Below are positions 24,932 through 41,026 of a stretch of 64,000 nucleotides of DNA, one piece after another. The translations under genes and the position numbers were made by a program. Under the pieces are notes generated by a model. It was not told where the DNA came from and made no database searches. It was given only the letters and a program-made list of their open reading frames with translations. Source of the stretch: Dietzia timorensis (lineage in GTDB: Bacteria > Actinomycetota > Actinomycetes > Mycobacteriales > Mycobacteriaceae); assembly GCF_001659785.1 (NCBI RefSeq), contig NZ_CP015961.1, positions 558,001 through 622,000 on the forward strand, given 5' to 3'. Position 1 is the stretch's first letter; each line of letters opens with the position of its first letter.

Positions 24932-26305
24932 ATGTCTCGGGATGATCGCAGAAAATACTTCGTCGTCTACACAAGCAAAAAGCCAAAAGCCGTTGCTGCT
25001 GCAGCAAAGCAAGTTCGAATACGCCAGATGCCGGTGAGGGATGTAGACGGACTGCCCGTAATCGTTGACCAATTCGGCAGGCCAGAAACAACTTTCCTGG
25101 GTTTTATCTTGACGTATTCATCGCTTTCGAAAAATACGTTGGAACAATATGGTAATGCGCTCGCCCGATTTGCAAATTTTATGTCTGCAACGTTCTGTGA
25201 GATCCCCGCAAAAGCGACCGCAAGTCAAATTGACCTCTATAAGCGAACTCGATTGCACCTTCAGTCAAAGCCAATACAACCGATATCTTTCAAGCCCGAA
25301 GCGGCTGTTCTGAGGAACTACTTCTTGTGGCTTGAGCAGAGTAATCTTATCGAAAAGTCTCCCATATTACGTACTTCTAGAGCGGGAACGGACCTATTGC
25401 ACGTGCGCGCGATTGGACAGAATCGCGTGCGGTACGTATCAAAAGAGGCATTTCGAAAGTTCATAGATTCAGCCGAAGGGTCGAATCGGATACATAATCT
25501 GAGACGGGCAGATTTGAGAAACGTGGCAGTAATAAAGACACTCGTTTCTGCTGGAATGCGCCTACAAGAAGTGAGCACGTTACTATCGTGCGAGGTTGAT
25601 ACGGCAGTTCGTCGAAGCCAGGTTTGGGAATTCGATATTCAAGCGGCGGCAAAGAATGGAAAACGTCGAACAATCTATCTCGATATATACGCACTTAGGG
25701 CGATTGAGAAGTATCGAAAGATCGAAAGACGACATATTGTAAAGTCAAATCAGGAGCGGTTCAGAGATCATTTGGACGAGCTCTTCGTTGTTGAATCTAT
25801 CGATCCGAAGTCAGGAATGGTTAGCGGTTCGTGGGGCATGAGTGGGCCCCATTTAAAGTATGAAATTCGTTCTACTCCGGTCGATATTCGAAGGAAGATT
25901 GTTTCGATCAACAAACACGGATTCGTGGAACCGCTAGCGCTCTTTCTTAGTCAATCCAGGGGACTCCCTATGTCTCGGTCGGGGTGGGAGCAAGTGTTTA
26001 GAAAAATATCTGAACAGGCTTTCTTCGGAAAAGAGTATTATAGCGAGCCACATATTTCACCACATGACTTGAGACATACGTTTGCAATCAACTATCTGAG
26101 ATATAGATACGCGCAAATGGTCACACAGGAACAAGAAGACCTCGCTCATCCGTTGTTGGATCCACTTGTTGATCTCCAGGAGATACTCGGACATTCAAGC
26201 ATGGCGCAAACCATGCGATATCTTCGCCTCTTGAACAAGCTAGACGAGGGAGTCGCGGCGTCACTTAAATCATACGTAGGGGAACTGTATGGCGAAGAAA
26301 AATGA
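24932..26305 (+). CDS. Tyrosine recombinase 1 of the island (GinA/TnpA-like)
   Basis: 457 residues, ATG. A SAM-like N-terminal core-binding domain (about 45-180; TLEQYGNALARFANFM) precedes the catalytic domain. The full tyrosine recombinase set is present: Arg210 in SAGMRLQEVSTLL, His378 and Arg381 in PHDLRHTF, His421 in LGHSSMAQ and Tyr430 in MRYLRLL. It should therefore be competent for strand cleavage at the att sites. It is the first gene of a four-gene operon; the next start overlaps its end by 17 bases. Size and order fit the first recombinase of GInt-type elements. Confidence 0.9.
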   Translation: MSRDDRRKYFVVYTSKKPKAVAAAAKQVRIRQMPVRDVDGLPVIVDQFGRPETTFLGFILTYSSLSKNTLEQYGNALARFANFMSATFCEIPAKATASQIDLYKRTRLHLQSKPIQPISFKPEAAVLRNYFLWLEQSNLIEKSPILRTSRAGTDLLHVRAIGQNRVRYVSKEAFRKFIDSAEGSNRIHNLRRADLRNVAVIKTLVSAGMRLQEVSTLLSCEVDTAVRRSQVWEFDIQAAAKNGKRRTIYLDIYALRAIEKYRKIERRHIVKSNQERFRDHLDELFVVESIDPKSGMVSGSWGMSGPHLKYEIRSTPVDIRRKIVSINKHGFVEPLALFLSQSRGLPMSRSGWEQVFRKISEQAFFGKEYYSEPHISPHDLRHTFAINYLRYRYAQMVTQEQEDLAHPLLDPLVDLQEILGHSSMAQTMRYLRLLNKLDEGVAASLKSYVGELYGEEK

Positions 26306-28154
26306 GCGTCAGACAATTGTGAATAGCGCGGTTCATTCGGCGCACGAACAATTCGGTGTTTCCTACCTTGGCGTCCGAAAAATTACTATCGACCAAGGAG
26401 TCACTACACGGGATATTTCTTTTGACCCTTCGACGTACGGAAACCCGCAAATCGCAAATGCTCTGGCGGATGCATGGGTTTCGGTCAGTCAAAGTCAGTC
26501 ATATAGCGCCGCAGCGGTCAAGAAGCAGGCCATTACTTTGTTTCTCGAAGATCTGGATCTAAAAGGATATAGAAACTTATCATTCTCATCGACACCAGAT
26601 TTAGTGTGCGATTCATTGATTGATTGGAGTTTAAAGCTCGAACGTGAATACCCTGTAGATTCCTTTATGCCATACAGGATGAGCAGTACAATTCAGCAGC
26701 TTATATACACTTTTCTGAGTCTGGCCAGAGCCGATGATGGAATGTTGTGGCGAATCGCCAAAGGTCCGAGTTTGATAGTCAAGCCCGCTAACAGGGAAGT
26801 AGACGAATTCAGCAAATCGGAACTTGATCAACTCGTAATGGCGGCTCGAGCGCATATACGAATGGCGAAGGCCGCATCAATGTGGGCACGAAACGTGATT
26901 GAGGGTAACGCTACATGTGAGCCTCACTCAAATGAAAACGAACTTCGGCGTCTGCTCTCCCTCGCTTATCGCTTTGAGCTAAGTGCTTTGGATACTCAGT
27001 GTGTGGACGTTAAAGAGATCGCAAGCTTGTTTCCGGAAGATTGGCGAAAGCTACTTTCCGCGAAATCGCTGTTAGGTCTCTGTTATCAAACTGTACATTC
27101 TTCTGTTTCAGGGTTAGTTCCTTTTCGTATTCTTTTGATGGAGTTAACCGGATTGTCTTCTGATGAGATTAGCGGTTTGAAAGTTAGTGGGTGTGCCTTC
27201 GCTGACGGCGGAGTGTCATTAAACGTCGAGAAGTCGAGAGCGGTTCGAAATCGAACGGTATTCTATAAAGACAGAAGCCCGAACGGTCGATGGGGATTAA
27301 CAGGCGTTCTGAAGGAGCTTCTGTTGAACGTGGATTCGCTTAGGGCGAATGCTGCACCTCTGTTAAACGATGAGGTGTGGCTTCGACTTGCCTTTCCGAG
27401 CGATAAAGAAGTACCTGCCGTTACCTCTGTCAATTTTTCATTTGGTGCACTCTCCACCCGCTCCTGGGTTGCCTCGATGATTGGGGCGGGTTTCGCTTTG
27501 GATCTTTCTGAACCAATTGATGTGCGTCGGATTCGCAAAGCTAAAGTTTCTGATCGGGCCATCTCGTTGGGAGCACGCGCGTCTGACATAGCGGCTGATC
27601 AGCATTCGATTGCCGTTTTTGACAGCTACTACGCTTCCGCTAGTTCAATACAGGTGTTTTCAGCTACCCGTGTAGTAGAAGTGCAGGCCAAGATGTCTCA
27701 AGGGGTTAGGGTCGGCTTCGCGGGGCTAGCTGAGAATCGTGAAGACGTTTCTACGCAGGCGTTATCAGAGTTCGCCGACGTCACACCAGATGCCGCTCAG
27801 GCGATAAAAGAAGGGCATCACGACGTCGGCGTGGCGGATTGCAGGGATCCTTTCGATTCGCCTTTCGATGCCTACGGAGTTCTCTGTCATGCGGCGCCGT
27901 TGTTCTGCCTAGGCTGCAAGAACGGTCTGGTGTTTCCAATACATGCTCCTCGAATAGCTTCATTTCTAAAATCGATTCGATCTGCAAAGTACCCTGAAGA
28001 TACGGATGACTGGGTTAGGACGTGGGGTCCTCAGATCGCGGCTGCGGAGCGAGTTTTATCCGAACTCGGCTGGACGGAATCAGACATTGAGGAGTGCCCT
28101 CTCGAGTTGACCGACGAACTTCCAGCCTGGATTCGTGTGGGTAACGATGAATAA
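26289..28154 (+). CDS. Tyrosine recombinase-like protein 2 (GinB/TnpB-like), catalytically degenerate
   Basis: 621 residues, ATG. The C-terminal half has the recombinase layout, but key positions look changed. The Arg I box reads LTGLSSDEISGL (Ser where Arg is expected), and the HxxR box reads DVRRIRKAK without His. A final QHSIAVFDSYYASAS keeps a candidate nucleophile Tyr. A Cys cluster (CRDPF...CHAAPLFCLGCKNG) follows, a common feature of the larger recombinases in these elements and possibly zinc-binding. Probably a structural or DNA-binding partner rather than an independent recombinase. Overlaps both neighbours (17 and 20 bases), indicating coupled translation. Confidence 0.8.
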   Translation: MAKKNERQTIVNSAVHSAHEQFGVSYLGVRKITIDQGVTTRDISFDPSTYGNPQIANALADAWVSVSQSQSYSAAAVKKQAITLFLEDLDLKGYRNLSFSSTPDLVCDSLIDWSLKLEREYPVDSFMPYRMSSTIQQLIYTFLSLARADDGMLWRIAKGPSLIVKPANREVDEFSKSELDQLVMAARAHIRMAKAASMWARNVIEGNATCEPHSNENELRRLLSLAYRFELSALDTQCVDVKEIASLFPEDWRKLLSAKSLLGLCYQTVHSSVSGLVPFRILLMELTGLSSDEISGLKVSGCAFADGGVSLNVEKSRAVRNRTVFYKDRSPNGRWGLTGVLKELLLNVDSLRANAAPLLNDEVWLRLAFPSDKEVPAVTSVNFSFGALSTRSWVASMIGAGFALDLSEPIDVRRIRKAKVSDRAISLGARASDIAADQHSIAVFDSYYASASSIQVFSATRVVEVQAKMSQGVRVGFAGLAENREDVSTQALSEFADVTPDAAQAIKEGHHDVGVADCRDPFDSPFDAYGVLCHAAPLFCLGCKNGLVFPIHAPRIASFLKSIRSAKYPEDTDDWVRTWGPQIAAAERVLSELGWTESDIEECPLELTDELPAWIRVGNDE

Positions 28155-30600
28155 TCTTCCAGGAATTTTCGATTCGCTTGAGCACGGTAAGTCCGATGGT
28201 CGGATATTCGACCCTGATGATGAAGTGTTTGCCCAATACCCCGGCAAGGTCGAAGATGCATCCGTCGTTCGATATTCGGACATCTCTTGGTCACTAGAAG
28301 GGGTAGCTGATTTACGTCGGAACTCGCATTTCGGCTCGGCCACGCTCAAGTTTCGAGCGCATGAACCGTGGCTGACTCTGATGCGTGAGTTCGCAATGGT
28401 TCAACTGAACCCAAGCGACCGCCGCGTTCTTTCTCGCGAGATTTATATTGGGTTGCATCCCGTGAACTTCTCAACTGTTATCTCGAAAAATGCGTCACTT
28501 CAGCTTCTAGCTTCGTGGCAGCGCGATTGTGGCTTGCCAACAAGTATGTGTGATTGGACGGCCTGGGACTGGGAAAACTTGGTCATGGACCTGGTGGAAT
28601 CTGGACGTGCGAAGGGCACAATAAAAAACCTAGTCTCTGCCGTACGCGATCTAATTTCGTGCCGCGGTATCAACCCAACCCTTATCCCGAAGCTAGACCC
28701 CTGGGACGGCGCGCCGACAGCGAAAATTGCACAACGAGCCGAGGCGAAATCAATGAAAGTGATTGAGCCTGCTGTATGGATGCCACTAATGGCCGCAGCC
28801 TGGAAGTACATCTCCGTATTTAGTGCGGACATCATCAGCCTGCGGACGTCGCATGATTGCCGGGAAGCCGTAGACCGCTCGTCTCACAAGACTCCGCGTC
28901 AATTGCGCGAGGAGGTATTCCGACGGTTTCTCGATTCTTATCAGGGCCCCATACCTGCTCGTATCGATAGCGGCGAGATTCAGCCGGCCTGGGTGCGGCT
29001 CTCGATTCTAGTGACATGCGGAGCTTCCACGCACCATTTTGCTTGGAGGAACGTTGATCGTCGGGACCTTATCAGGTCAAGAGTTTCTTCTGGCGCTCTG
29101 CAACTTGAGGTAATGACGAAAACCGAGTTCGAGAACTTATGTGCTGAGTGGAACAAAGTATTGGGTGCTCCGGAGTTGGATTCCGCGAAGAAGTCCGGAG
29201 AAGAGACTAATAAGATGGTTCGGGACTGGCTAAGTCTTGAAGACTCGCGTGTGGCATTGAAACATCGCGTTTCGGATCTCGACAGTATTACGTCGTCGGA
29301 TATTAATTGGGCAATGATGGAGCGTGAGGTGTATAACGCTAATTGTCAGAATGGACTCCTTTCCCAAGATTCGGAGAACGCTCAATTCCGCCGTCAATTA
29401 ATAGTTGACTTTGCTAGAAAAGGCCGAGTTTACGTGGCCGATAAGGGTCAACTTAGTAGGAAGCGAAAGTGTCCCGGATTCGTGCAGGTAGAGAGTTCTT
29501 CGGGTGAGCTTTCTGCATGGGCAACTGAATTGTCAGATTTTGAAGCACGTAATGAGCTCCTTGCGCTGCGCGCCGCTTGTTTTATTTTTGTCTGTGGAAT
29601 GACTCTAATGCGAGATTCTGAGATCCAGGCGATCAGGCGGAATTCGATTATCGACTATTTCGGACAACGAGCAGTTCGTTCCGTCTTCTATAAAGGACGG
29701 ACCGTTCCAACTCCGGGATTTTGGTGGGTAACAGACGAGGTTGTGCAGGCGTTTGAAGTTCTCGAGTCGTTGAGTATGGATGAAGAGTATCTAGTAGGCG
29801 CGGTGGTTAAGACTGACATCGAGAAGGGGCCAAAGGGGTCGCACAAGGCCGAGAGAAAGGAGTTCGCCAACCGAGGAATTACGGCAGGACGCGAAATAGA
29901 CCGCTTCATCTCCATAGTGAACAGGTGCGGTAGCTCAAAGGGGCTGTCGCCGATCCCATCGGAAGCGGGGGTCGGACCAAGGTCCTTGCGAAGGACTGGC
30001 GCGACGATTCTTCGAGAACTAGGTGCTGACGAGCTTTCGCTTAGTCGACAACTCAAACACTCCATTGCGGCTACGCGTTCGTCCGTCACAGCGTCATACA
30101 TGGCTCCCGACAGGAATTGGGAAGCTTTGTTACGCGGGGAACAAAGACAGACGGCAATTCACGCTGTCTCGAATGCCCTTGCCAGCAATGACCGCAAGAA
30201 GATTCGAATTAGTGGAGGAGGGGCAAATCGGATTCAGGAGGCTGCTGAGGCCTTAGGGCTTTCCGCTGAGACACTTACAAGCAGGGAAGTGCAAGCTCTG
30301 TTGAAAACTGAAGAGGGGGAACTCTTCATGGGTGCGACCAACGCTTGCCTATACGACCCCTCAACAGCCCTCTGCCATAAGCGCGGAGAGCACTCAGAAC
30401 GCCCGCACTTCGCCTCTTGCGATGCAGTTAATTGCCGAAATTCAGTAATCACTATCGAGCAACTTCCAATCTGGAAGGCGGAAAGATCTCAACTCAAAAC
30501 CTTGCTCGAAGTTAGTCGAGTGAGTTCTGTAAGGAAGAAAATGCTCGAACGGAGGCTACAGCAGGTTGAAAAGGTCATATCGGACTTCGTGGAGGAGTGA
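28135..30600 (+). CDS. Tyrosine recombinase 3 of the island (GinC-like)
   Basis: 821 residues, the largest of the trio. The catalytic domain shows Arg493 in TLMRDSEIQAI, Arg616 and Arg619 in GPRSLRRTG (Arg replacing the usual His of HxxR), His642 in QLKHSIAATR and Tyr655 in TASYMAP. It ends with a Cys-rich region (ACLYDPSTALC, then FASCDAVNC), probably a zinc-binding fold, and a charged helix. It lies between the second recombinase and the small coiled-coil gene, overlapping the first by 20 bases and the second by four. Length matches the long third recombinase of GInt elements. Confidence 0.83.
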   Translation: MWVTMNNLPGIFDSLEHGKSDGRIFDPDDEVFAQYPGKVEDASVVRYSDISWSLEGVADLRRNSHFGSATLKFRAHEPWLTLMREFAMVQLNPSDRRVLSREIYIGLHPVNFSTVISKNASLQLLASWQRDCGLPTSMCDWTAWDWENLVMDLVESGRAKGTIKNLVSAVRDLISCRGINPTLIPKLDPWDGAPTAKIAQRAEAKSMKVIEPAVWMPLMAAAWKYISVFSADIISLRTSHDCREAVDRSSHKTPRQLREEVFRRFLDSYQGPIPARIDSGEIQPAWVRLSILVTCGASTHHFAWRNVDRRDLIRSRVSSGALQLEVMTKTEFENLCAEWNKVLGAPELDSAKKSGEETNKMVRDWLSLEDSRVALKHRVSDLDSITSSDINWAMMEREVYNANCQNGLLSQDSENAQFRRQLIVDFARKGRVYVADKGQLSRKRKCPGFVQVESSSGELSAWATELSDFEARNELLALRAACFIFVCGMTLMRDSEIQAIRRNSIIDYFGQRAVRSVFYKGRTVPTPGFWWVTDEVVQAFEVLESLSMDEEYLVGAVVKTDIEKGPKGSHKAERKEFANRGITAGREIDRFISIVNRCGSSKGLSPIPSEAGVGPRSLRRTGATILRELGADELSLSRQLKHSIAATRSSVTASYMAPDRNWEALLRGEQRQTAIHAVSNALASNDRKKIRISGGGANRIQEAAEALGLSAETLTSREVQALLKTEEGELFMGATNACLYDPSTALCHKRGEHSERPHFASCDAVNCRNSVITIEQLPIWKAERSQLKTLLEVSRVSSVRKKMLERRLQQVEKVISDFVEE

Positions 30601-30980
30601 GAATGCCTGAGTCGAAGCGATCAGAAGAGAAAATCTTGCGGGCAATGGTCGAGCTCCTAGCAGCACCCAGCGAGAAAACAGACAAGAAGCCGACGAAGAC
30701 GGATTTGGCTACCCAAGCCAATATTTCGAGAGCAACTCTATACCGACATCGAGACCTACTTGATACATGGGACAGATGCGTCGACCGCCGCGGATGCGGA
30801 CAAGATCGAGCCCGAGTGAAAGAGTTGGAAGAGCTTCTGGAAAAGGAGCGGGAATCAAGGGAGCTAGCCGAGCAACTTTCTGAAGGTCTCGCGAATGCCT
30901 ACGTGGAGTTGTTCGAACAGACTAAGCCAACTGCCTTGAGCATCGAAAGATCACGTAGAAGCGACGGCATCGGCAAATAA
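30597..30980 (+). CDS. Small HTH/coiled-coil protein of the island (GinD/TnpC-like)
   Basis: 125-127 residues. ATG 30603 is the likely start because GGAGGA lies just upstream; a GTG at 30597 overlaps the preceding stop (GTGA). The N-terminal half has an HTH (KTDLATQANISRATLYRH), and the C-terminal half is a charged coiled coil (ELEELLEKERESRELAEQLSEG). The same plan is found in TnpC of Tn554 (125 aa) and GinD. In Tn554 TnpC is an accessory factor influencing frequency and orientation of transposition; the same role is inferred here. Confidence 0.8.
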   Translation: MRMPESKRSEEKILRAMVELLAAPSEKTDKKPTKTDLATQANISRATLYRHRDLLDTWDRCVDRRGCGQDRARVKELEELLEKERESRELAEQLSEGLANAYVELFEQTKPTALSIERSRRSDGIGK

Positions 30981-31151
30981 CGTCAAGTCCAAGGTATGAT
31001 GTTCGGCTCACTCCGGGGTTCGATTGTTAGTGTCGGCGATTTTCGATCGCCACTCAATGGAAGGCCTGAAGTTGCCATACATAAAAATTGGGCTCCACCT
31101 GCCACAACGTGAAGTAGGAACCAATGGAGCTGTCACAAAAGGAGACCTTAC

Positions 31152-32081
31152 ATGTTAGAAGAGCCGTTCGATATATCTAATGCCGTCGATGTCTGGCTTG
31201 TCGGTCAGAAAGTAAGCCCTACCCAACGCAAGGAACGGTACGTCCGCGAATCCTTCTCCCACCCAGCCAAGATGCTTCCCGAGCTAGCTGCGCGCCTCAT
31301 ACGGACATACACCAAGGAGGGTGAACTCGTGCTCGATCCGATGAGTGGCATCGGGACTTCGGGAGTAGAGGCTATTTGGCAAAATCGAAACTACGTGGGC
31401 ATCGAAGTGGAGACACAATACGCCAAGCTTCAAGAAGAAAGCCTTCGGTTGGCAGAATCGCAAGGCGCTGAAGGGTCGTGGAATGTCTACAATCGCGATG
31501 CTCGGGAAGGGTTCTCAGCCGAGACGGTCGATCTAATCTGCTTTTCTCCGCCGTATCACGATGCTATACACAATCAAGGCGACGAGATCGCGCGAATAAA
31601 ACGAAAGATCGACTCGGGCAAGGCTACACCTGCGATGTTGAGTCGATTCAAAAATTGGAAACCGGAAAGTGAATACGCTGGCGCAGGCACGCGGTCTTTT
31701 GGGTATTCGTCAAATGGAGAGAACATAGGGCATCAAAATGGGGACCAATACTGGCGCTCAATGGATCACATATACGGTAAAGCGTATGACGCCCTGAAGC
31801 CAGGGGGGTATTTGGCGGTAGCTACGAAAGAGCAACGAGACCGAAAAACCGGAAACTTAACAAACTTGTACGGAGATACAGTCGCGCACTGTCAAGCAAT
31901 TGGATTTGGGCTCCATCAGCATATAGCAGCGGTGCTTTGTAAAATTCATGGTGACGGCGAAGTCATTCCAAGGACATCACACTGGCAAAGGATGGCCGTA
32001 AAGAAGGCCAACGAATCGGAACGGGTAGTTTTGCTAAATCAATTTGAAGATGTCGCTGTATTTCGTAAACCACTAACATGA
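31152..32081 (+). CDS. DNA amino-methyltransferase, SPPY type (M1)
   Basis: 309 residues, ATG with AGGAGA upstream. Motif X-like ESFSHPAKMLPELAARLI precedes motif I VLDPMSGIGTSGVEAIWQ (SAM-binding FxGxG variant) and the acidic motif II YVGIEVE. Motif IV is LICFSPPYHDAIH. This X-I-IV order is the gamma arrangement, and SPPY is usual for N4-cytosine and some N6-adenine enzymes, not for C5-cytosine ones. The C-terminal half is the probable target-recognition region. It is convergent with mcrC (36 bases between stops). Proposed to protect one strand of the island's restriction target. Confidence 0.85.
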   Translation: MLEEPFDISNAVDVWLVGQKVSPTQRKERYVRESFSHPAKMLPELAARLIRTYTKEGELVLDPMSGIGTSGVEAIWQNRNYVGIEVETQYAKLQEESLRLAESQGAEGSWNVYNRDAREGFSAETVDLICFSPPYHDAIHNQGDEIARIKRKIDSGKATPAMLSRFKNWKPESEYAGAGTRSFGYSSNGENIGHQNGDQYWRSMDHIYGKAYDALKPGGYLAVATKEQRDRKTGNLTNLYGDTVAHCQAIGFGLHQHIAAVLCKIHGDGEVIPRTSHWQRMAVKKANESERVVLLNQFEDVAVFRKPLT

Positions 32082-32117
32082 ATGGAGTAGGATATTTTAG
32101 AAAACGCGAACGTAGAA

Positions 32118-33461
32118 CTAAATTTGACTCGCGTTCGCCACTCCCTTCTTGTTCGAATAATCTTCACTGTTTAGCAGGGCGAGAGCAGTCATATTTATCG
32201 ATTCAATCAGCTTATCTAAGCTCGTAAAATCTATAGAAATCCATAGCCGGAACACACGTTTCTCCGCAAGGAATCCAAGCATTTCCAGCCGGGGGCTCTT
32301 GAGCGTAGTTTTGCTGGGGTAGATTAACAAGACCGTATTACAGCTAAATGCATCGGCGTGAGCACACACTTGATGAATATGACTAGAGCTTGGGGACAAT
32401 GAGTATTTTACTTCGCCTATGAGCCAACTTGAATCGCGTTGCTGAATAACGAAATCTGGGTGCGCACTTTCGGTCGCCCTAACGGGCGTCCAGAAGTGAT
32501 TGGATTCGACCGGTGGATGAAGTAATGGAGTGTTTGACACGCCGCTAGTGTCTAGAAGCTCGAAACTTTCTCCGTTTAAAGACTTGTTAAAAATTGCGAT
32601 GCAAAATTGCTCAAACGTCTTCTCCATATCCAGCACGAGAGGCGGCAGGCTAAATTGGATGCCCTCAGCCTCGCCGGCAACGTCGGGAGTTTCACCGGAT
32701 GCGATGAGAAGGGCTAGGTTCAACAATGGGCGAAAGGAAAGATATGGTTCTTCTGAAACGTCTGTTGATAAGTGGTCGCGAAGCGGAGAAAGAAATAGAT
32801 ACGGAGGAGCCTCGGAAACGGATTCTAAAATCGTTCGAGACTCGACAAGAATATTCATTTGTTGTTGAATGCTGTTGTTCGATTCCTCCATCGTGTCGAT
32901 GAGGTAACCGATTGCAAATTTCATTGCTTGATTGAGAAAGTTGGAATAGTCGAACTCGTAGAACTCTGTTGATAGATGGTCGTATCGGCCTCTGGCCCAA
33001 GCGCGATTTATTGTGCCGGACACGTCAATCCTCCCTCGAGCGCCCGGACCAATCGATCGGTTCCGCCTGTATCGCCGAATCGGCCCTTTTTGGATGAGCG
33101 TCGGAAGTTGATCGCAAAATGAGCGTCGTATCGCCTTTAAGAGGTCATAGTCGTCTTCTGACGCGGTAATCTCCGCCAGGCCAAATGGTAACTCCACAAT
33201 ATCGTGAGAGATGAGTGAAAGCATCTGAACGATTTGTGAAACCGGAACTTTCGGTCGTACCCTAATTCCAAGATCGTGTGAAACTGGGATCATTCCGATA
33301 TGATTCTGTCCTCGAATTAAGAGGCCGGATTTGTGAACCTCTCTCTTGATCAGGTTCCTATCAATGATTCTATGGTCGATGTTTAAAAGCGCATCTACGT
33401 CATTCTTATCGCTGACTACAAGGGGGCTACCGCCTCGCTCCTCTGTATCGAGCCACCTCAA
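32118..33461 (-). CDS. mcrC: McrC-family restriction nuclease subunit
   Basis: 447 residues, ATG overlapping the mcrB stop (ATGA). The N-terminal half carries McrC features (LLIRGQNHIGMIPVSHDLGI, IRVRPKVPVSQIVQMLSLIS, GPIRRYRRNRSIGPGARGRI). The C-terminal PD-(D/E)xK core is visible as SAHPDFVIQQRD followed by SWLIGEVKYSL. In McrBC systems McrC binds the McrB ring, stimulates its NTPase and cuts DNA. It is the last gene of the methyltransferase-mcrB-mcrC operon. Name assigned by family, not by orthology to the E. coli 5mC-specific enzyme. Confidence 0.88.
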   Translation of the reverse strand: MRWLDTEERGGSPLVVSDKNDVDALLNIDHRIIDRNLIKREVHKSGLLIRGQNHIGMIPVSHDLGIRVRPKVPVSQIVQMLSLISHDIVELPFGLAEITASEDDYDLLKAIRRSFCDQLPTLIQKGPIRRYRRNRSIGPGARGRIDVSGTINRAWARGRYDHLSTEFYEFDYSNFLNQAMKFAIGYLIDTMEESNNSIQQQMNILVESRTILESVSEAPPYLFLSPLRDHLSTDVSEEPYLSFRPLLNLALLIASGETPDVAGEAEGIQFSLPPLVLDMEKTFEQFCIAIFNKSLNGESFELLDTSGVSNTPLLHPPVESNHFWTPVRATESAHPDFVIQQRDSSWLIGEVKYSLSPSSSHIHQVCAHADAFSCNTVLLIYPSKTTLKSPRLEMLGFLAEKRVFRLWISIDFTSLDKLIESINMTALALLNSEDYSNKKGVANASQI

Positions 33462-35215
33462 TTTGTGGTCTCGGACTGTATTAGCGCTTGATCGAATAAT
33501 GCGCGCAGTTCATCGGTGTCGGCCTTCTTGTGGGCCAGTTGCCGCGAGATTATTGGTTCAAGCCGGTAATCCCAGATCCTTCTCAAAGATTCACGGGAGT
33601 CTGCACCCTTAAAATGAGCATGGCCAAGACCGCCTTCCGGGAGGATCTCTTGGGCGCGCTCGAAAAATGATCTGATGCTGTTTTGAACGTGGTTGCTCAA
33701 TCCGCCACGTACTAAGAAATTCTGAAGCGCCTCTCCGTTCGGCCTCACTGGAATTGTGAAAAATCTTCGGATAAGCGCAACATCAAGAGATACGACTGAA
33801 CGGTCAAATGGATTCAGTGTTGCCAAAATAATCAAATTGTGAGGAACGGTCAGTGAGTTTCCGGACGCCAGAGTGAATTCCTCGCCTCTGTAATCTTCCT
33901 CCAGGTACGTTATTGCCTCGCCAAAAATTCGACCTACGTCCCCCCGGGATAATTCGTCGATCAATATGACGACGTAATCTGCTTCTGCGCACATGCGGAC
34001 AGCGTGCTTAAGAATTTTGGGTTGAAGCTCAAAAGTGGGGACGTGAGAGTCTTCAGTCATTGTGGGTACGTATCCCTCAACGAAATCCTCATATCCGAAA
34101 GAAGGATGGAATTGCACTTTCAATGATTTCACGTTGAATGATTCTGATAGTTCCGCGACCGCGCGACGTGCGATGAACGATTTCCCTGTGCCAGGTGGGC
34201 CACTTAGGAGGATCGAGCGGACGCCGTCGTAAATCAATTCGAGCACTTCCTGCACCGTATTAGTCGAAGTCTCGTCTAGTTCATTGCTCGGATACGGCTC
34301 CTCGTTTGAGTCCGGTAGCAGGCGTCGTGCCTCTCCGTGTTTCAGGGCCCAAGAGTGCTCATCAACGTAGTCAATAAAATTTGGAGTCGTTGAAACAACG
34401 TGACTTATGAATGGACGGAAAGCTTCTGAGACTTCCCATTCATTATAGGATGGCTTGCTTAGAAGTGAGGGCTGATCTCCAATCGCGGCACCAGCTTTGC
34501 CCATCCAATACTTGGGCTCCTTAGCTGCAGTCGAAGTCAAAGGTGTCGGGTATTTTGCGTCTAATTCTGCAGTGGAAAGATGTGAGTCTTCTCGGAACCG
34601 TTTGATCTGTATTACAGTGTTCGGAATCTGATCGGCTGTCTTTAGCTTGAAAACGAATCGTTGCAATTCCTCGGTGGTTATTCGCCAGTCGCAATCATGC
34701 ATTATCTTCCAGATTGTCCAATATGGGAATATGTCGGATTTCCCTCTGGCTTCAGCCAGTGCTTGGTTCTTTACTTTGGGGTAGCCTGGGTGATTAATTT
34801 GGTAATCGGCCAGCAAGTCGACCAGGAAGTATGGCACCACACGTAGGAAGTCCGGAACTTTTGAGAGTAGAACCTCTGCTTGTTTACCTGCGTCCGTGAT
34901 CCGAACCGTTCCGGAAGAAGTGTCGATCCACCCAACTTCTTTATATGCGAGGACCGCAGTGGCGAACTTTCCACCGTGCCGGTTTTGCGACGTTGCGCCT
35001 GTGAGTAGATTGTAGTCTCGGTCGATCTGACTCTTTGCAGTCGACAGTTCCACTCCGTCGTACTTGCAAGCAATTTGAAAGAGTTGAACGCCACTCGGAG
35101 TGAAGCTATGATCTCGGGATTGATACCAATAATAGGTATTATCAGTCGGATTTGAATCGGTTGTGCCGTCTTCTGCTTGCACAACGTCGTTGGCGTTCGT
35201 AGGGTCTTGTGTCAT
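33458..35215 (-). CDS. mcrB: McrB-like AAA+ restriction subunit
   Basis: 585 residues; the start follows the methyltransferase stop directly (TGA-ATG) with GAGGAG upstream. Residues 1-330 are a divergent N-terminal region, presumably DNA recognition (PSGVQLFQIACKYDGVEL, KVKNQALAEARGKSDIFPYW). The AAA+ domain has Walker A LLSGPPGTGKSFIARRAV, Walker B VVILIDELSRGDVGRIFGEA and sensor-1 region ILATLNPFDRSVVSLDVALIRRF. E. coli McrB has a GTP-specifying MNTADRS at the last site; here it reads LNPFDRS, so nucleotide preference may differ. Works with McrC as an NTP-driven translocating nuclease. Confidence 0.88.
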   Translation of the reverse strand: MTQDPTNANDVVQAEDGTTDSNPTDNTYYWYQSRDHSFTPSGVQLFQIACKYDGVELSTAKSQIDRDYNLLTGATSQNRHGGKFATAVLAYKEVGWIDTSSGTVRITDAGKQAEVLLSKVPDFLRVVPYFLVDLLADYQINHPGYPKVKNQALAEARGKSDIFPYWTIWKIMHDCDWRITTEELQRFVFKLKTADQIPNTVIQIKRFREDSHLSTAELDAKYPTPLTSTAAKEPKYWMGKAGAAIGDQPSLLSKPSYNEWEVSEAFRPFISHVVSTTPNFIDYVDEHSWALKHGEARRLLPDSNEEPYPSNELDETSTNTVQEVLELIYDGVRSILLSGPPGTGKSFIARRAVAELSESFNVKSLKVQFHPSFGYEDFVEGYVPTMTEDSHVPTFELQPKILKHAVRMCAEADYVVILIDELSRGDVGRIFGEAITYLEEDYRGEEFTLASGNSLTVPHNLIILATLNPFDRSVVSLDVALIRRFFTIPVRPNGEALQNFLVRGGLSNHVQNSIRSFFERAQEILPEGGLGHAHFKGADSRESLRRIWDYRLEPIISRQLAHKKADTDELRALFDQALIQSETTN

Positions 35216-36610
35216 TCAGCTGCTCCTCAAGACAAGGACTGACTCTCGAAGTAGTTTCTGATTCTCTCTGGGGATAAGCCTTCTTTGCTGTGGGCTCGTG
35301 GTCAATGCCCGCGCTACTTCGATTCTCTCCACGGTCATACCCAGCTCTCTTGCCATGCTGGCAATAAAGAGATCCGTAGGCACTATCAAACCAGCATAGG
35401 CGGAATTGCCAACTACGATGTGTGCGAGTGCTCCCGGTTTGAGGACGCGGTTTACTTCATTGATAATTCTGTGCATGTCGAAGAAATATGCAAGGACGCT
35501 ATCGGGGAGTTTCCTGCTCCACAACTTGCGCGATCGCAGCGTTGAAACAATTGAAAGTAGTTCAGTCGGTAAGGTTTCTTCTTGTTGGTCGTTTAATTCT
35601 GAAAGGTCCAGTTCGACGTGTGATCTAAGCGCTGTATCAGTCAACTGCTTTAAGTGCGAATAGTTTTCGACATATCCGCCCATCCATAATTCAATCTTGA
35701 ACGCTTTGAAGTAATTGAAGTTGTTGCAGTACGGCGGGGAAAAGACACTTACATCGATTGAATTCGACTCGATCTCCGAAAGGGAGGCCACGGAAGATCG
35801 CTCTCTAATAGCAGGCTCAATACCGTTTGCGGGGAACGACTGCACGTCGTTGATCATCATGTCGATTTGGTTGATGAAACGATCGATGCACGTCTCCCGC
35901 GCAGGCAAGAGGTAGCCCGGGACTTGTTCCCAGGGAACTTGCACGTAGCCGTTTTTTGTTCGCTTTCTATTACGATACTTAATACCATTGCCCTCTTTAA
36001 AGGTGTTGGAGACTCCTTCAAGTATCGAAACCCAGGCAACTTTCAGTAAGTCTCGCGCGCGGTAGTTTTCGATCCCGTCGATCACGTATCGCATTGATAA
36101 GAGGATCGCCAGAACGTCGGGACGAAATACTTTTTGCAAGATTTTGAGTTCTGGTGTCTTCGCTTGCGGTGACTGGTCGGTAAGCTGGCGAATATCTGCG
36201 ATAGCTTGGTCGACTACAAGAAAGTCGGTGGATGAGTAATTATGAGTCTTCGCCCGACTCAGTTGAGCGATAACTGGATTGACTTCATACCCCAGGGAAT
36301 CAAGCCCATGACGTCGGGCAACAACAAGGGAAGTTCCTCCACCTGAAAACGGGTCTAGAAGCGTCCCCTTGTCTAACGGGAGTGAGGCCGATTTTTCTGA
36401 TTCGGCGATCGCTCTGTCGACGATTTCGGGAGCGTACCCTTCTCTGTACTTGAGCCAGCGCTGGAACGGTGCAGAAGCGCTTGGGAGGGAGTTGACCAAT
36501 GTAGCAAGTTTGGGTTCATTGACGACGTTGAACTCACTGTTCAATGCCCTGAGCTCGGACATGTCTTGTGTTTCGTGCGAACCGATTTCTTCTTCACTGG
36601 CTATAGTCAC
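35216..36610 (-). CDS. DNA amino-methyltransferase, SPPY type (M2)
   Basis: 464 residues if the GTG at 36610 (VTIASEEEIGSHETQDM) is used, with AGGA upstream; the frame stays open to 36721. Motif I is TLLDPFSGGGTSLVVARRHG with motif II LGYEVNP, and motif IV is VSVFSPPYCNNFNYFKAF. A long insert between them (about 120-290) would be the target-recognition region. A C-terminal GALAHIVVGNSAYAG strand completes the fold. First gene of the operon with mcrB and mcrC, directly abutting mcrB. It is only distantly like M1, as expected if each modifies a different strand of an asymmetric site. Confidence 0.85.
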   Translation of the reverse strand: MTIASEEEIGSHETQDMSELRALNSEFNVVNEPKLATLVNSLPSASAPFQRWLKYREGYAPEIVDRAIAESEKSASLPLDKGTLLDPFSGGGTSLVVARRHGLDSLGYEVNPVIAQLSRAKTHNYSSTDFLVVDQAIADIRQLTDQSPQAKTPELKILQKVFRPDVLAILLSMRYVIDGIENYRARDLLKVAWVSILEGVSNTFKEGNGIKYRNRKRTKNGYVQVPWEQVPGYLLPARETCIDRFINQIDMMINDVQSFPANGIEPAIRERSSVASLSEIESNSIDVSVFSPPYCNNFNYFKAFKIELWMGGYVENYSHLKQLTDTALRSHVELDLSELNDQQEETLPTELLSIVSTLRSRKLWSRKLPDSVLAYFFDMHRIINEVNRVLKPGALAHIVVGNSAYAGLIVPTDLFIASMARELGMTVERIEVARALTTSPQQRRLIPRENQKLLRESVLVLRSS

Positions 36611-37039
36611 GATCGGAATCCTACTGTAGCAATACGACAGTTTAACTCCGTGTAGGCGTCTTGATGGGGAATGTGGGGGTGTCAATTCAGATTGTACGGT
36701 GCGCTGTTGGGGCTCCCGCACGGAGTTGTGACGCCTGACCTTGCTCGTCCCTCATGTGGGCCAGGACCGAAGTAGACAATGCCTCCCCTTACCGCCAGAA
36801 GTCTAGCGATGAAGTCGTGCCCGTGACCCGTTCCCCAGAAGAAGCTGGCGCTCTTGCGCAGGTCGCGAGGTATGTCGAAGTCCGCGATTTGGAATTTCCT
36901 TTAAAGAATTCGCCAATCCGAGATCGATGACGAAATTCTTCTTGGTGAGTCCATCAAGAACTCCGCGGAGCGGTGTGCGTTTCATCTACGGAACCGTCTG
37001 TTAAAGCAAGAGATCGAAGTCCTGCGTTACGCTGTCGCA

Positions 37040-37250
37040 TTTCTGTTGCAGGCGAACTTGCCGTTGGAGGTTCGACGCCCTTGTGAGTGAGGTCGTCCCT
37101 GATGCCGTTCCCGTTGCTATTTCCCGCGGGGAGTGAAGGTTTCGCGCCAGGCCAAATGCGGCTGGCGGAAACAGTAGATGGTCAGGGATGAGCTCATCGG
37201 GGCTCATCCAGCCAAGGCCCTGGTGGATGCGAACTGAGACGATCGGCGAG
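37040..37250 (-). pseudogene. Integrase-core transposase remnant (C-terminal tail)
   Basis: Minus frame SVRIHQGLGWMSPDELIPDH resembles the conserved C-terminal signature of IS3/IS481-type transposases (..HRPHQGLGYRTPAE..). No upstream DDE core remains in frame, so this is a short decayed remnant. Confidence 0.55.
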
Positions 37251-37419
37251 CTCAGCTACTGGTTCCTCGTCGGAAAAGACGGCGACGCCGGCTAAGAGAT
37301 GTGCGAGCAGACTTGAGTGGCGGATTTTCGGGACAAACGGTAGTGGTCCGTGTTCGGGAAGAAGCGTGGCAAGAACAGGAAACGACCAGTCCTACAAGTC
37401 TAAGATGGTCTGGTTAAGC

Positions 37420-37560
37420 GAGGCTGCTCCGCTGATCATGTCAACGAACTCTGGCTGGCCGACTTCACTGAGCGCTGGACCCCGAGGGGCTATTCGCCCC
37501 CTGCGCTATCAAAGATGGATCTTATGACGTTTTGATGGCGACTCGTTCAACGACTGGATG
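37420..37560 (+). pseudogene. IS3-type OrfB remnant
   Basis: Plus frames read VNELWLADFTERWTPRG and, one frame over, CAIKDGSYDVL. Together they resemble the first part of an IS3-family integrase core (..ELWVTDITEHWT..LYLCAIKDVYS..), where the first catalytic Asp sits. A frameshift divides them and the remaining core is absent. Confidence 0.5.
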
Positions 37561-37889
37561 AGGGTGCGAGTTTTGGTAAAAGTTCTGGACCACGCGCTAC
37601 TTGGTCGGCGCGACGCCGCTGGATGCTTCGTGCATTTGAAACGGGGGGTCACGGAAATACATGCCCGCTCTCAACCGTCAACAGATCGTTAGATCGATTT
37701 GTCAGGTCGGCGTGGGCTATTGCGTCCATCGAAGGCGAGACCATCGTGAACCCGGCCATGAGCCTTGGGGCCTCTCAACAGATCGCAAGGCGGCCCCATA
37801 AGAGCGCTGCCCTCGCATGTTTTTCGGTCTCGAAGGACGAAAATGAACTCATCGCGGAAACTTGCGATGTCCACTTTCTTGTAGATTAA

Positions 37890-39551
37890 CCCCGCTGATT
37901 CACGGGCCGGTGTGACTGCTGCTGTCGGGTGACGGCGGGCTTGTTTTCGCGTGTGGGCGTGCGTGTGTGCCGGCTGGCGCTGCCGGTGGGCGGGTCTCCG
38001 GGTGGTGATGTCGTGGGCGGGCAGGTGAGGTCAGGCGGGTTTTGGGATCGCGGCGATCGTGTTGAACACTGCGACGATGGCGGTGGCCCACGGCCATGTT
38101 TCGGGAATCTTCACGCGCCGCCGCCGGCCACTACGGACCAGTCGGGCTGCCACGTGAAGGAAGCGGTAGCGCAGCGCTTTGGGCTCGCACAAGGCCAGAA
38201 CTGCGGCGTCGCCGGTGCAGGCCAGCATCCGAGTCCACGCCACCAGATCTGCGGCGATCATCACCGCCACCAGCCAAGCCTGGTTGAGAGCGAACTCCCG
38301 CGAGGGAAGCCTGCCCAGGCCGGTGTCTTTGGCGTGGCGGATGCGGTCCTCGACCCGGGCGTGAGCCCGATGCCTGGCTTCAAGAAACTGCAGCTGGCCG
38401 GTGGCGGTGTTGGTGACAAAAGCCTGGTAGCGCCATCCATCGATCTCCTCGAACATCGACAACTGGGCGCCGGGGTGGGGCCGCTCGCGGCGTACGATCA
38501 CCCGCATCCCGTCTGGCCACTTTGCGAGCATCCCGGGAGCGAGGAACCCGGTCAGCTCCGCGATGTCGGCCCCGTCGCGGATGTCCCCGTTGGGGTTGAG
38601 CGCTGGTCCCCACGCGGCTTCGGGGCAGGTCGCGATGGCCCGGCGAATCGGGGCAGTGATAGCGAAGCCGACCGAGTACTCCACCTGTCGACCACGAACG
38701 CGGTTCTGCTCGGTGATCCACTCCAGCAAGTCGTGGGAGGCGCCGGCACCGTCGGAGCGGATCAGCAGATCACGCCGATGACTGGCGGGGATCTGCGCGA
38801 TGGCCTGGCCCAGGACGTCGATGTGGTCGGCAGCGGTGTTCGACCCGGCGTTGCCCGGGCGCAAGCTCGCGGCGAGAAACTCTTCTGTGTTGTCGCACCA
38901 CACGCCGATCGGGTGGTACCCGAACGTGCGCTTATATGTCGGAGTTGCATGTTCCTTCTCGCTGTGGGTGACCACGATGGTGGCATCCACATCGAGCACG
39001 ACCGTCGATCCCAGATCCCGCCCCGCACACGCCGATGCGGGTACTCCGCCGGGCAGTTGGGACCACACGTGCCGCCGCGTGCGGGCACGCGCGACCTGGA
39101 TCTTCTTGCGCTTGCCGGCAGTGACCTCATCGAGTGTGCGCCACACCGTCGGCGCCGAGGCGACCGGGCCCAGGGCCCCGGATTGGTGGCGCAGGACGCC
39201 GATGTCGGAGATGGACTCGCCGCCATCGGCGAGCATCACCGCGGTGTCGATCAGCACACGGCCGCGGTCGTGGATCGGGATGAATTGTCGGCGAGCCATG
39301 GCCCCTGACAGCTCGGCGGTCAGACCGACCTGATCAGCCAGAAGTCGAGGCACGATGGCCCCGGCGTGGGCGATCACCCCGACACCATCAGCAGTAACGG
39401 ACAGACCGGCCGACCACGAAGTACGCTTCACCTACCGAGTGCTTTCTGCTGGAGAACATGGAACCTTAGACAAGTCCCAGTTTCCCCTGCTCAGGAAGCA
39501 CTTCGGTCTATTTTCGCCCAGCGATCCGCAGATCCCCATGAAACACCCAGG
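37890..39551 (-). mobile_element. IS1380-family element, copy 3 (type A)
   Basis: A 1,662-bp element, inverted relative to copy 1 and with the same ends and transposase. It is flanked by perfect 4-bp direct duplications TTAA (37886-37889 and 39552-39555), so it entered by a simple transposition into the right arm of the island. It separates the decayed stretch from the XRE regulator. Confidence 0.95.
38031..39431 (-). CDS. IS1380-family transposase (copy 3)
   Basis: 466 residues, translation the same as copy 1 (MKRTSWSAGLSVTADGVG start, DVDATIVVTHSEKEHAT and RSDGAGASHDLLEW catalytic motifs). Complete, no interruption, presumed active. The identity to copy 1, about 37 kb away on the opposite strand, shows recent movement of this IS within the genome. 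Confidence 0.95.
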   Translation of the reverse strand: MKRTSWSAGLSVTADGVGVIAHAGAIVPRLLADQVGLTAELSGAMARRQFIPIHDRGRVLIDTAVMLADGGESISDIGVLRHQSGALGPVASAPTVWRTLDEVTAGKRKKIQVARARTRRHVWSQLPGGVPASACAGRDLGSTVVLDVDATIVVTHSEKEHATPTYKRTFGYHPIGVWCDNTEEFLAASLRPGNAGSNTAADHIDVLGQAIAQIPASHRRDLLIRSDGAGASHDLLEWITEQNRVRGRQVEYSVGFAITAPIRRAIATCPEAAWGPALNPNGDIRDGADIAELTGFLAPGMLAKWPDGMRVIVRRERPHPGAQLSMFEEIDGWRYQAFVTNTATGQLQFLEARHRAHARVEDRIRHAKDTGLGRLPSREFALNQAWLVAVMIAADLVAWTRMLACTGDAAVLALCEPKALRYRFLHVAARLVRSGRRRRVKIPETWPWATAIVAVFNTIAAIPKPA

Positions 39552-39700
39552 TTAAGCACGCGATTTGGTCTATTTCATCGCACCAGTTGGGATTTCAACT
39601 CACCTTGAAGCGGTTGCGTTCCGGGCCGACGTTCTTCGGGCCATTTTGGCAGAGTTCGCTACGGCCTCTTCGTGAAAGCATCAGACTGATCGGAAATTGA

Positions 39701-39725
39701 GCATCAATGCACTACTAGTGGGGCA
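39701..39725. promoter_or_regulatory. Operator-like repeat upstream of XRE regulator
   Basis: GCATCAATGCACTACTA (39701-39717) followed by GTGGGGCA. The core TGCACTACTAGTGGGGCA is an imperfect palindrome around ACTAGT. The first 17 bases match GCATGAATGCACTACTA at 40311-40327 at 16 of 17 positions. It lies about 35 bases upstream of the XRE gene start, which fits autoregulation. Confidence 0.6.
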
Positions 39726-39758
39726 GATTTTTGATTGGGTGCCAACCCTACTTAGGTT

Positions 39759-40028
39759 GTGCCAACTCGACCAAGTCAAAATGATCCAGCACGTGTGGAA
39801 GCCTGGGCTGCGTACCGCGCTCTCGTTGGAGGACGAATTAGGGAAATACGAAAACGTCGAGGCTTTACACAGGAAAGGCTTGCCCTGGAGTCCGGCGTCA
39901 CCCGAAATGTTCTCATTCAAGTAGAGCAGGGCAAGAGGGGGCTCCTGTACGAAAGGCTATTCGATCTTGCGAATGTGCTTGAAGTTTCGGTGCCGGCTTT
40001 TTTTGAATCAAGTGAAGAAGATGGGTGA
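39759..40028 (+). CDS. Small XRE-family (Cro/C1-type) regulator
   Basis: 89 residues, GTG start. The body is a single HTH_3 domain: GRIREIRKRRGFTQERLALE, SGVTRNVLIQVEQGKRG, LFDLANVLEVSVPAFFE. Such single-domain XRE proteins include the controller (C) proteins that time restriction-modification genes, and antitoxin-type repressors. It is bordered by two near-identical operator-like repeats and is convergent with a small unknown gene (one base between stops). A C-protein role for the island's R-M system is possible, but it is separated from that operon by about 3 kb of IS and debris. Confidence 0.78.
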   Translation: MPTRPSQNDPARVEAWAAYRALVGGRIREIRKRRGFTQERLALESGVTRNVLIQVEQGKRGLLYERLFDLANVLEVSVPAFFESSEEDG

Positions 40029-40029
40029 C

Positions 40030-40314
40030 TTAACCGTCAGGGGTCTTCTTTGATTCAATTTCGTGTAATTGTATGAGGTCCCATAAGCGCGCGGAATTTT
40101 CAGGTTGCCGCGATAGCTCAATGGCGAGGTCCAAGAGTGCCTCCACAAATGAGCTTTCGCTGGCCAATCCATTAAGTGCCTTCATTCTTGAAGGGTCTTC
40201 GATGTGCCAAGCGATCCTGAAATCCAGTAGTTGCGTGTAGAACTTCTCGGAAAATAGTAGGTTCTTTCGGATGATCTTGCCGGACATAGGCGTGACGCCC
40301 CCTCGCTCTAGCAT
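40030..40314 (-). CDS. Small island protein of unknown function
   Basis: 94 residues from ATG 40314, or 85 from ATG 40287 (MSGKIIRKNLLFSEKFYTQL), which has a purine-rich GAGCGAGGGGGCG upstream. It is predicted soluble and largely helical (LASESSFVEALLDLAIELSR), with no family I recognise. Its upstream region holds a strong palindrome matching the one before the XRE gene, so both genes may be controlled by the same regulator. Convergent with the XRE gene. The pairing could be a toxin-antitoxin or an element-control module; neither is shown by motifs. Confidence 0.6.
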   Translation of the reverse strand: MLERGGVTPMSGKIIRKNLLFSEKFYTQLLDFRIAWHIEDPSRMKALNGLASESSFVEALLDLAIELSRQPENSARLWDLIQLHEIESKKTPDG

Positions 40315-40340
40315 GAATGCACTACTAATAGTGCATCAGT
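40311..40340. promoter_or_regulatory. Operator-like palindrome near the right end of the island
   Basis: TGCACTA, four bases, TAGTGCA (40319-40336) is a perfect 7-4-7 inverted repeat. It is preceded by GCATGAATGC, so that 17 bases repeat the motif at 39701. It overlaps the start region of the 94-aa gene and lies about 80 bases from the right junction with tadA. Confidence 0.65.
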
Positions 40341-40411
40341 TTGGGCTCGGAAGGCCGAGGACATCCTTATTTAGACGACTATTTCCGTGAGACACCTGAA
40401 GTTGACAACAT

Positions 40412-41026
40412 AACGCGGGCAAGACCACCCTGCTCGCCGCGATGCTCGGCCTCGTCCCGGCCCGTGAACGCATCGTGTGCGTCGAGGACTCGCCCGAACT
40501 CGCCCCCGCACACCCGCACGTCGTTCGCCTGGCCGCGCGCGGCGGAAACTCCGAGGGCGCAGGCGAGGTCGCGTTGCGCGAGCTCGTCCGCCAGTCGCTG
40601 CGTATGCGCCCCGACCGCGTCGTCGTCGGGGAGGTGCGTGGCGCCGAGGTCGTCGACCTGCTCGCCGCGCTCAACACCGGACACGACGGATCGGCGGGCA
40701 CGATCCACGCGAACTCCGCCGCCGAGGTTCCTGCCCGTCTCGCGGCACTAGGAGCGCTCGGTGGCCTGTCCGGCCCGGCGCTGGCCGCGCAGGTCGCGGC
40801 CTCGATTCACGTGGTCATCGGCGTGCGCCGCGACCTGGACGGTCGCCGGCACGTCGCCGAGATCGGTGTGGTCACCACGACCCGCGACGCCGCCGGTCTC
40901 GACCTGCGCGTGGAACCGGCGTGGACTCACGGCGCCGGCGACACCGAACCGCCCGCGGGCCGCAAAGTGCTGGATTCGCTGTTGCGGACGCGGCTCCCCG
41001 CCGTGGCGGAAACGGAGGCACGATGA
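40412..41026 (+). pseudogene. tadA: TadA/CpaF pilus ATPase, C-terminal half, cut off from its start
   Basis: From the right junction the frame reads N-AGKTTLLAAMLGLVP, that is the second half of Walker A. Then come the Asp/Glu boxes (RIVCVEDSPELAPAHPHVVR), Walker B VVVGEVRGAEVVDLLAALNT and the His box GSAGTIHANSAAEVPARL. About 204 residues. The part has no start codon of its own before the P-loop; ATG 40442 is internal. Together with 24309-24914 it makes a TadA of normal size (about 400 aa). Ends overlapping tadB (ATGA). Confidence 0.95.
40415..40420 (+). other. Right integration junction (attR candidate)
   Basis: GCGGGC, encoding Ala-Gly of the P-loop, is the first tadA-like hexamer after island sequence (...CAACATAAC). 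It mirrors GCCGGT at the left junction. Core extent cannot be fixed without the empty site. Confidence 0.5.

Follow-up and report, generated by a model that had tools for sequence, protein, structure and literature searches.

We analysed a 64,000-nucleotide stretch of Dietzia timorensis DNA (contig NZ_CP015961.1, positions 558,001 to 622,000 of the forward strand), called the window below, in which four genes encode two DNA methyltransferases, M1 and M2, and a McrB-McrC pair. McrBC is the textbook modification-dependent nuclease. All four open reading frames (ORFs) are present and uninterrupted, with catalytic motifs in place. The features, in window coordinates and with profile matches in brackets, are as follows.

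31152..32081, + strand: M1, amino DNA methyltransferase, 309 aa (PF01555 N6_N4_Mtase, 9.6e-21)
32118..33461, − strand: McrC-like nuclease, 447 aa (PF10117 (McrBC), 2.5e-21; PD and EVK motifs)
33458..35215, − strand: McrB-like AAA+ GTPase with a fused, putative N-terminal recognition region, 585 aa (AAA_5, 7.9e-14)
34574..34993, − strand: predicted McrB recognition region, about residues 75–214 (homology to AlwI/BspD6I-type restriction endonucleases by hhalign)
33524..34264, − strand: McrB AAA+ motor domain, about residues 318–564 (34–44% identity to McrB of operons with an SPPY methyltransferase)
35216..36721, − strand: M2, amino DNA methyltransferase, 501 aa as the longest ORF (PF01555, 1.6e-8; PDLC03224)

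An earlier reading of the sequence alone had described M2-McrB-McrC as one operon with M1 convergent to it, and the gene boundaries agree. The M2 stop codon runs directly into the McrB start (TGA|ATG) and the McrC start overlaps the McrB stop (TTGA), so that the three genes are likely to form a translationally coupled operon, and M1 converges on McrC across a gap of 36 bases. Position 36610, which had been given as the end of the module, is an internal GTG of the M2 ORF. Because the closest M2 homologues (32–35%) begin to align at M2 residue 50–58, the true start is probably this GTG or the ATG at 36562.

The same sequence-only reading had placed M1 and M2 in the amino-methyltransferase class as two dissimilar enzymes, which is borne out. 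Both match PF01555 and carry DP[MF]SGxGT and SPPY: DPMSGIGT at residue 62 and SPPY at 132 in M1, DPFSGGGT at 123 and SPPY at 328 in M2. Motif I thus precedes SPPY in both, with a spacing of ~60 residues in M1 and ~200 in M2. The SPPY motif points to N4-cytosine methylation. When the two enzymes are aligned, similarity is confined to the surroundings of motif I and SPPY, and we rejected the idea that they are recent duplicates on these grounds. McrB carries Walker A (GPPGTGKS at 339), Walker B (DELSR) and NPFDR at 468, which is of the NxxD type; its best NCBIfam match is the McrB model NF008457 (2.5e-23, under the model's own cut-off). In McrC, PD at 335 and EVK at 350 align with those of relatives, as in a PD-(D/E)XK nuclease.

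The N-terminal region of McrB

How might this McrB recognize its target? Before any kin of its N-terminus were known, two profiles of the AlwI family of type IIS restriction endonucleases (REases) had matched it weakly: Pfam RE_AlwI on residues 159–218 (0.017), reaching model positions 56–120 of 441 only, and PADLOC PDLC03422 on residues 162–211 (0.0035). The AlwI-type C-terminal PD-(D/E)XK cleavage domain was not found in McrB, the C-terminus of which is AAA+. Among the ORFs of the loci that we gathered, phmmer matched the McrB N-terminus to the N-terminus of an HNH endonuclease from a Pseudanabaena plasmid (L013; 1.4e-6 in this local set), and a pairwise blastp aligned the two at 28% over 125 residues (2e-7). 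On the Cryobacterium plasmid pA28BH1 (NZ_MN657145; L012), a system includes a separate protein that matches the same HNH endonuclease (4e-9 for the pair), and a 265-aa protein of L086, a locus from the window's taxonomic family, weakly resembles McrB residues 158–214. These four sequences, with no AlwI sequence among them, were aligned as A4, and four AlwI-family REases were aligned as A3. The AlwI-family alignment covers N.BspD6I along almost its full length (2ewf, 6.7e-63).

Compared by hhalign, A4 and A3 aligned along 124 columns of the N-terminal part with a score of 60.1 (E 4.9e-7, probability 92.5). Against A3, column shuffles of A4 (n=100) had a mean of 13.4 and a maximum of 20.3, reversed A4 scored 14.9, the N-termini of other McrB proteins scored 12.5–21.3 (12 of 12), and residue-shuffled, realigned sets (n=60) stayed at or below 21.5. 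When each REase was left out of A3 in turn, A4 scored 43.0, 46.7, 60.0 and 51.4. The window McrB N-terminus alone scored 27.5, with its own shuffles (n=100) at 22.7 or less, and 26.1–27.9 in three of the four leave-outs; its addition raised the score of all seven subsets that had been without it. Searched over 396 genomes of the phylum at E <= 0.01, A4 gave two matches, one in the window's own genome and one to the N-terminus of an AlwI-family REase in genome G232 (0.00102), which had been brought into the analysis via M2 and not via the recognition domain (its locus is L079 below).

These comparisons suggest a remote homology between McrB, at about residues 75–214, and the recognition half of AlwI/N.BspD6I-type IIS REases, and because of this predicted homology the N-terminus most likely reads an unmodified sequence. 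DUF3578, YTH and EVE, the modified-base readers looked for as a mark of type IV McrBC of the E. coli kind, gave no Pfam match on McrB at E <= 1, a search that a very divergent copy could escape; nor did the B3 domain at E <= 1, the AlwI-type match by hhalign being there instead.

As a single-sequence query, the McrB N-terminus had no match at E <= 0.001 among 393 further genomes of the class and none among the collected plasmids; no viral-contig match was confirmed, and PDB sequences gave nothing significant (best E 0.82). Whole McrB had no confirmed match in viral contigs, and its matches in phage records concerned the motor region only, the longest spanning residues 213–540 (among 15 of 20 records listed). 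One relative of the L013 HNH enzyme was found in viral contigs, over residues 242–432 only and outside the reader part, the G232 AlwI-family enzyme had no match in the plasmid collection, and the L086 and L012 subunits had none in plasmids beyond the source.

Related loci, methyltransferases and motors

M2 matches the PADLOC MTase_II profile PDLC03224 over nearly its whole length (residues 80–499, 3.2e-78) and phrog_18146 (2.6e-64). Enzymes with 32–35% identity to M2 occur in L012 (35%), L013 (32%) and L004/L079, and in L012, L013 and L079 (three of three) a second SPPY methyltransferase, from another family (Mb), comes after the M2-like enzyme. Downstream of these methyltransferases lie, in L012, the separate reader protein with McrB and McrC; in L013, the HNH endonuclease whose N-terminus is kin of the window reader; and in L079, the AlwI-family REase (PF09491 3.9e-15, PDLC03422 2.6e-98). 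Because M2-like and second SPPY enzymes adjoin nucleases with reader kin, the reader and the methyltransferases look like a portable cassette. We lean, with some reserve, towards the view of one portable specificity cassette, made up of a type IIS recognition domain and its set of methyltransferases, that has become joined to at least three unrelated cutters, namely PD-(D/E)XK (AlwI/BspD6I), HNH and McrBC; McrBC would then have been joined in both ways, through a separate subunit on the Cryobacterium plasmid and through McrB fusion in the window. At L079, a DUF6119 protein (2474–4258, 3.6e-28) and two neighbours without assignment adjoin the AlwI-family restriction-modification (R-M) locus.

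More distant relatives of M2 include a methyltransferase of a Ligilactobacillus plasmid (28% over residues 72–501), which stands beside an annotated AvaI/BsoBI REase; the methyltransferase associated with AvaI/BsoBI makes N4-methylcytosine. M1 does not belong to the Mb family, and its closest full-length relative is a Streptomyces plasmid protein (L019, 32% over 99% of the M1 length). On a Helicobacter plasmid, an M1-like (26%) and an M2-like (24%) enzyme adjoin a type II REase (PDLC03439 5.1e-67) that has no match to A4; this is a two-methyltransferase type II locus, and M1 resembles its first methyltransferase.

For the motor, we scanned genomes once with a McrB alignment and obtained 31 loci; the alignment holds three plasmid operons, so that the scan favours their family, its methyltransferases were flagged by motif regular expression and some may be missed, and several loci stop at contig ends. 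An SPPY methyltransferase lies directly before McrB and McrC in 13 of the 31 (L024–L036, of which L027 and L029 are one strain), as it does at the three plasmid loci that fed the alignment (L015–L017), and these operons are spread over alpha-, beta- and gammaproteobacteria and plasmids. At the other 18 loci no such enzyme was flagged adjoining McrBC, L040 and L041 having an NPPY enzyme farther away; a C5 flag on L038, opposite McrC, is probably spurious. The window McrB motor is closest to the McrB of the SPPY operons (34–44% identity; 19–23% for McrC). The McrB N-terminus of these operons, ~230 residues long, had no Pfam match in L015 or L016, the two proteins examined, and no match to the AlwI profile in any of three tested.

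A tree of 27 McrB motors grouped the window with the 13 SPPY-methyltransferase operons placed in it (98/91), these being 13 chosen from 16; L074, L075 and L086 failed the Walker regular expression and were not placed. In a tree of 51 rows, the window and all 16 SPPY operons grouped together (100/99), and of the 18 rows that bear an amino-methyltransferase label 16 fell in the window's group, the two outside it being L012, on a very long branch, and L040, whose NPPY methyltransferase is ~1.7 kb away. This tree omits ORFs above E 1e-8, without a Walker or DExxR motif or with fewer than 180 residues after trimming, the second ORF of the same label at a locus, and L002 and L055–L059, which repeat other loci; the label 'none' of L060–L073 refers to a flank of ~1.5 kb. 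Within the window's taxonomic family, an SPPY methyltransferase converges on McrC-McrB in L074 and L075, as M1 does, and at L086 (1762–7713) two C5 methyltransferases, the 265-aa protein, a short McrB and McrC stand one after another in a BsuMI-like layout.

On this evidence we favour, at a probability of about 0.78, the reading that the window encodes a mobile, modification-blocked R-M system in which a McrBC motor-nuclease would serve as the cutter, a predicted AlwI/BspD6I-class domain on McrB as the reader and M1 and M2 as protection of the host. Several observations weigh against it. First, the homology of the reader is remote, at 28% over 125 residues (HNH enzyme) and 23% over 124 columns (AlwI profile), and is based on profiles of four sequences each. 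Second, the score of the window sequence alone falls to 18.6, which is noise, once the G232 enzyme leaves A3, and the L012 and L086 proteins alone score 16.1 and 16.4, which is no match; the L086 subunit by itself was accordingly rejected as proof of AlwI kinship. Third, PF09491 is present in six of 346 genomes (a draw separate from that of the A4 scan, all six coming from an earlier draw), and A4 matched one of the six, the other five being without a match; the reach of A4 is limited to the closest AlwI-family member. Fourth, an A4 search of PDB sequences found nothing, N.BspD6I included, and an AlphaFold model from the one sequence had a pLDDT of 35.6 and was unusable. Fifth, no McrB or McrC blastp match lies within 8 kb of L019, the closest relative of M1. 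Finally, the window sits on a long branch in each of the two McrB trees, and the next branch, L076, has an AspBHI-type reader and no flagged methyltransferase.

The L076 protein (4452–6011), a McrB with an AspBHI-type N-terminal domain (RE_AspBHI_N 7.6e-46), probably joins a modification-dependent reader to a motor of the same kind. Its position just outside the window's McrB group favours an alternative in which the window McrBC is a type IV, modification-dependent enzyme and the methyltransferases beside it have some other role, whether orphan, regulatory or protective against a different enzyme. McrBC is, moreover, the prototype of type IV restriction (PMC11090510; this and the other papers given by PMC number are cited from excerpts), and MspJI was formerly misread as blocked by modification owing to an adjacent methyltransferase gene (PMC3874153). 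We nevertheless consider this alternative unlikely, because the window reader is akin to type IIS recognition domains, M2 abuts McrB in one operon, and M2-like enzymes recur with type II-like nucleases that hold reader kin.

Within the modification-blocked reading, the target may plausibly be asymmetric, with a methyltransferase for each strand. A variant compatible with that reading would have a palindromic or near-palindromic target, with M1 and M2 either modifying different bases or in part redundant. The single SPPY methyltransferase of the related operons suits a site that can be modified on both strands, and in the MlyI system a single enzyme serves an asymmetric site (PMC4081073). However, the two enzymes of the window are dissimilar and accompany an AlwI/BspD6I-type reader, and the type IIS enzymes AlwI and BstNBI/BspD6I have asymmetric sites, GGATC and GAGTC respectively, AlwI being protected by two methyltransferases (PMC4081073); we give this variant perhaps one chance in five.

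The mobile element and its setting

The system is cargo of a low-GC, recombinase-bearing element of ~15.5 kb, which splits the P-loop codons of a gene for a cpaF/tadA-like secretion ATPase. The features of this element are as follows.

24917..40413, no strand: mobile element carrying the system, ends approximate (GC drop, T2SSE parts on both sides, junction sequences)
24932..30980, + strand: group of recombination genes (arrangement; PF00589 on the first)
24932–26305, + strand: tyrosine recombinase (PF00589, 8.2e-18)
26289–28154 and 28135–30600, + strand: two long proteins without a convincing Pfam match, termed recombinase-like from their arrangement alone
30597–30980, + strand: small HTH-like protein
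38031–39431: DDE transposase inside the element (PF13701, 1.2e-63)

In 2-kb windows, GC is 0.475–0.551 at 26–38 kb and 0.606–0.743 at 1–24 kb and 42–64 kb. The T2SSE match of the interrupted gene is 5.6e-5 for the left part, which is under the Pfam cut-off, and 6.8e-30 for the right part; the insertion site thus falls on a conserved motif. We take the gene arrangement at 24932–30600 to resemble that of tnpABC of Tn554. Near the right end, at 39759–40314, are a small HTH_3 regulator (PF01381 3.3e-12) and, on the opposite strand, a 94-aa ORF without a Pfam match.

This setting bears on a further alternative, namely that the system is decayed or composite, the element having assembled pieces in which McrBC and the methyltransferases no longer match in target. 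M1 is convergent, lies outside the operon and is not the Mb enzyme found with M2-like enzymes in L012, L013 and L079; in addition, the operon is followed by a gene-poor, possibly degenerate stretch (~36.7–37.9 kb, between M2 and the DDE transposase) and by the transposase gene. Against this, all four frames are open with motifs intact, the Helicobacter plasmid pairs M1-like and M2-like enzymes beside a type II REase, and an active McrBC lacking matching protection should be lethal. Decay seems to us the least probable of the alternatives.

The DNA at 24932–36721 had no match in any of the 22 other genomes of the genus, and we rejected the idea that the module is a genus-wide feature on this basis. 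At least one McrB match was present in each of the 22 other genomes listed for the genus, and D. timorensis has a second chromosomal McrB-McrC pair (L087, G000:C1:2315000–2327000).

Proposed mechanism and comparison with known systems

We propose the following mechanism. The N-terminal half of McrB, with its AlwI/BspD6I-class domain, would bind a short, probably asymmetric, unmodified site. M1 and M2 would place N4- or N6-methyl groups on this site, probably with one enzyme per strand, and host DNA so methylated would escape McrB binding. On unmodified phage or plasmid DNA, McrB would form a GTP-driven ring, recruit or activate McrC, and move along and cut the DNA, as McrBC does. The binding step is proposed because of the recognition-domain homology, and the other steps follow what is known of McrBC and LlaJI (PMC1459862, PMC7680126); for the window system all of this, from the binding of unmodified DNA and the assignment of strands to GTP use, translocation, cutting and defence against phage, is inferred.

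The LlaI methyltransferase is of the adenine (amino) class. An analysis from 2008 places LlaI, BsuMI and LlaJI in one group of McrBC-related type II systems, all cleaving unmethylated DNA and possessing a type IIS methyltransferase pair (PMC2614495), and LlaI reads an unmodified sequence (PMC3874153). The window resembles them in its McrB-like GTPase, its McrC-like PD-(D/E)XK nuclease and its methyltransferase pair, M2 being in the operon. LlaJI has the asymmetric site GACGC/GCGTC and two 5mC enzymes; R1.LlaJI bound site-bearing probes in vitro, and neither cleavage nor GTP hydrolysis was demonstrable with the purified subunits (PMC1459862). Its C5-cytosine methyltransferases contrast with the two amino-type PF01555 enzymes with SPPY in the window, and its reader is a B3 domain (PMC12707154, PMC7680126), whereas an AlwI-like reader appears to be fused to McrB here. 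The readers named for McrBC in the excerpts of these two papers are DUF3578 or SRA-type, YTH, EVE and B3 domains. LlaI and BsuMI have a three-ORF restriction cassette (PMC1459862), whereas the putative reader of the window is fused within McrB.

Other relatives share different parts of the system. AlwI and BstNBI/BspD6I appear to have a homologous N-terminal recognition region, followed by a PD-(D/E)XK cleavage domain of their own where the window has a McrB motor with McrC. The L012 system of pA28BH1 has two SPPY methyltransferases, one of them M2-like, with McrB, McrC and a reader-kin protein, whereas its reader is a separate gene and its second methyltransferase is not M1-like. The SPPY operons (L015–L017, L024–L036) have the closest McrB motors and an adjoining amino methyltransferase, whereas they have one such enzyme, with SPPY before motif I, and another McrB N-terminus, and the window has two, with motif I first. 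Finally, the CoCoNuTs census of 2024 associated McrB GTPases with predicted DNA methyltransferases, deferring them to a later paper; these clades have an NxxD-type McrB beside the methyltransferases, as the window does, and no AlwI-type reader is named for them in the excerpt (PMC11090510).

The sequence-only reading had predicted a conventional R-M system with a McrB N-terminus that reads unmodified sequence, should the target be asymmetric with one enzyme per strand, and had called the module the most likely undescribed system in the window. Conventional R-M is likely, given the remote homology to the recognition half of type IIS REases. The combination of amino methyltransferases with McrBC, in contrast, is not new in itself, in view of the LlaI/BsuMI/LlaJI group (PMC2614495), the census (PMC11090510), the 13 of 31 scan loci and the three plasmids. 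The parts that seem novel are the attachment of an AlwI-type reader to McrB and a single specificity cassette that appears to have been exchanged between cutters of three kinds. In the literature (titles and the starts of abstracts on AlwI or BspD6I with McrB, and on later McrBC work) we did not find this fusion, a search with most subscription journals outside its coverage, which does not establish absence from print.

Because structures of N.BspD6I have been solved, the domain homology is testable by guided mutation, and sequencing should bring out the target through the methyltransferases; a GTP-driven cutter that is sequence-specific and has an identifiable reader would also make a useful enzyme. 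A continuum between type IV and type II has been raised as an open possibility in a review (PMC3874153). If the reader of a McrBC can be of the AlwI/BspD6I type, the border between the two types would depend largely on the reader that a common motor carries; and if the cassette view is true, McrBC would be a general, retargetable cutting engine that accepts readers of unmodified sequence from ordinary restriction enzymes.

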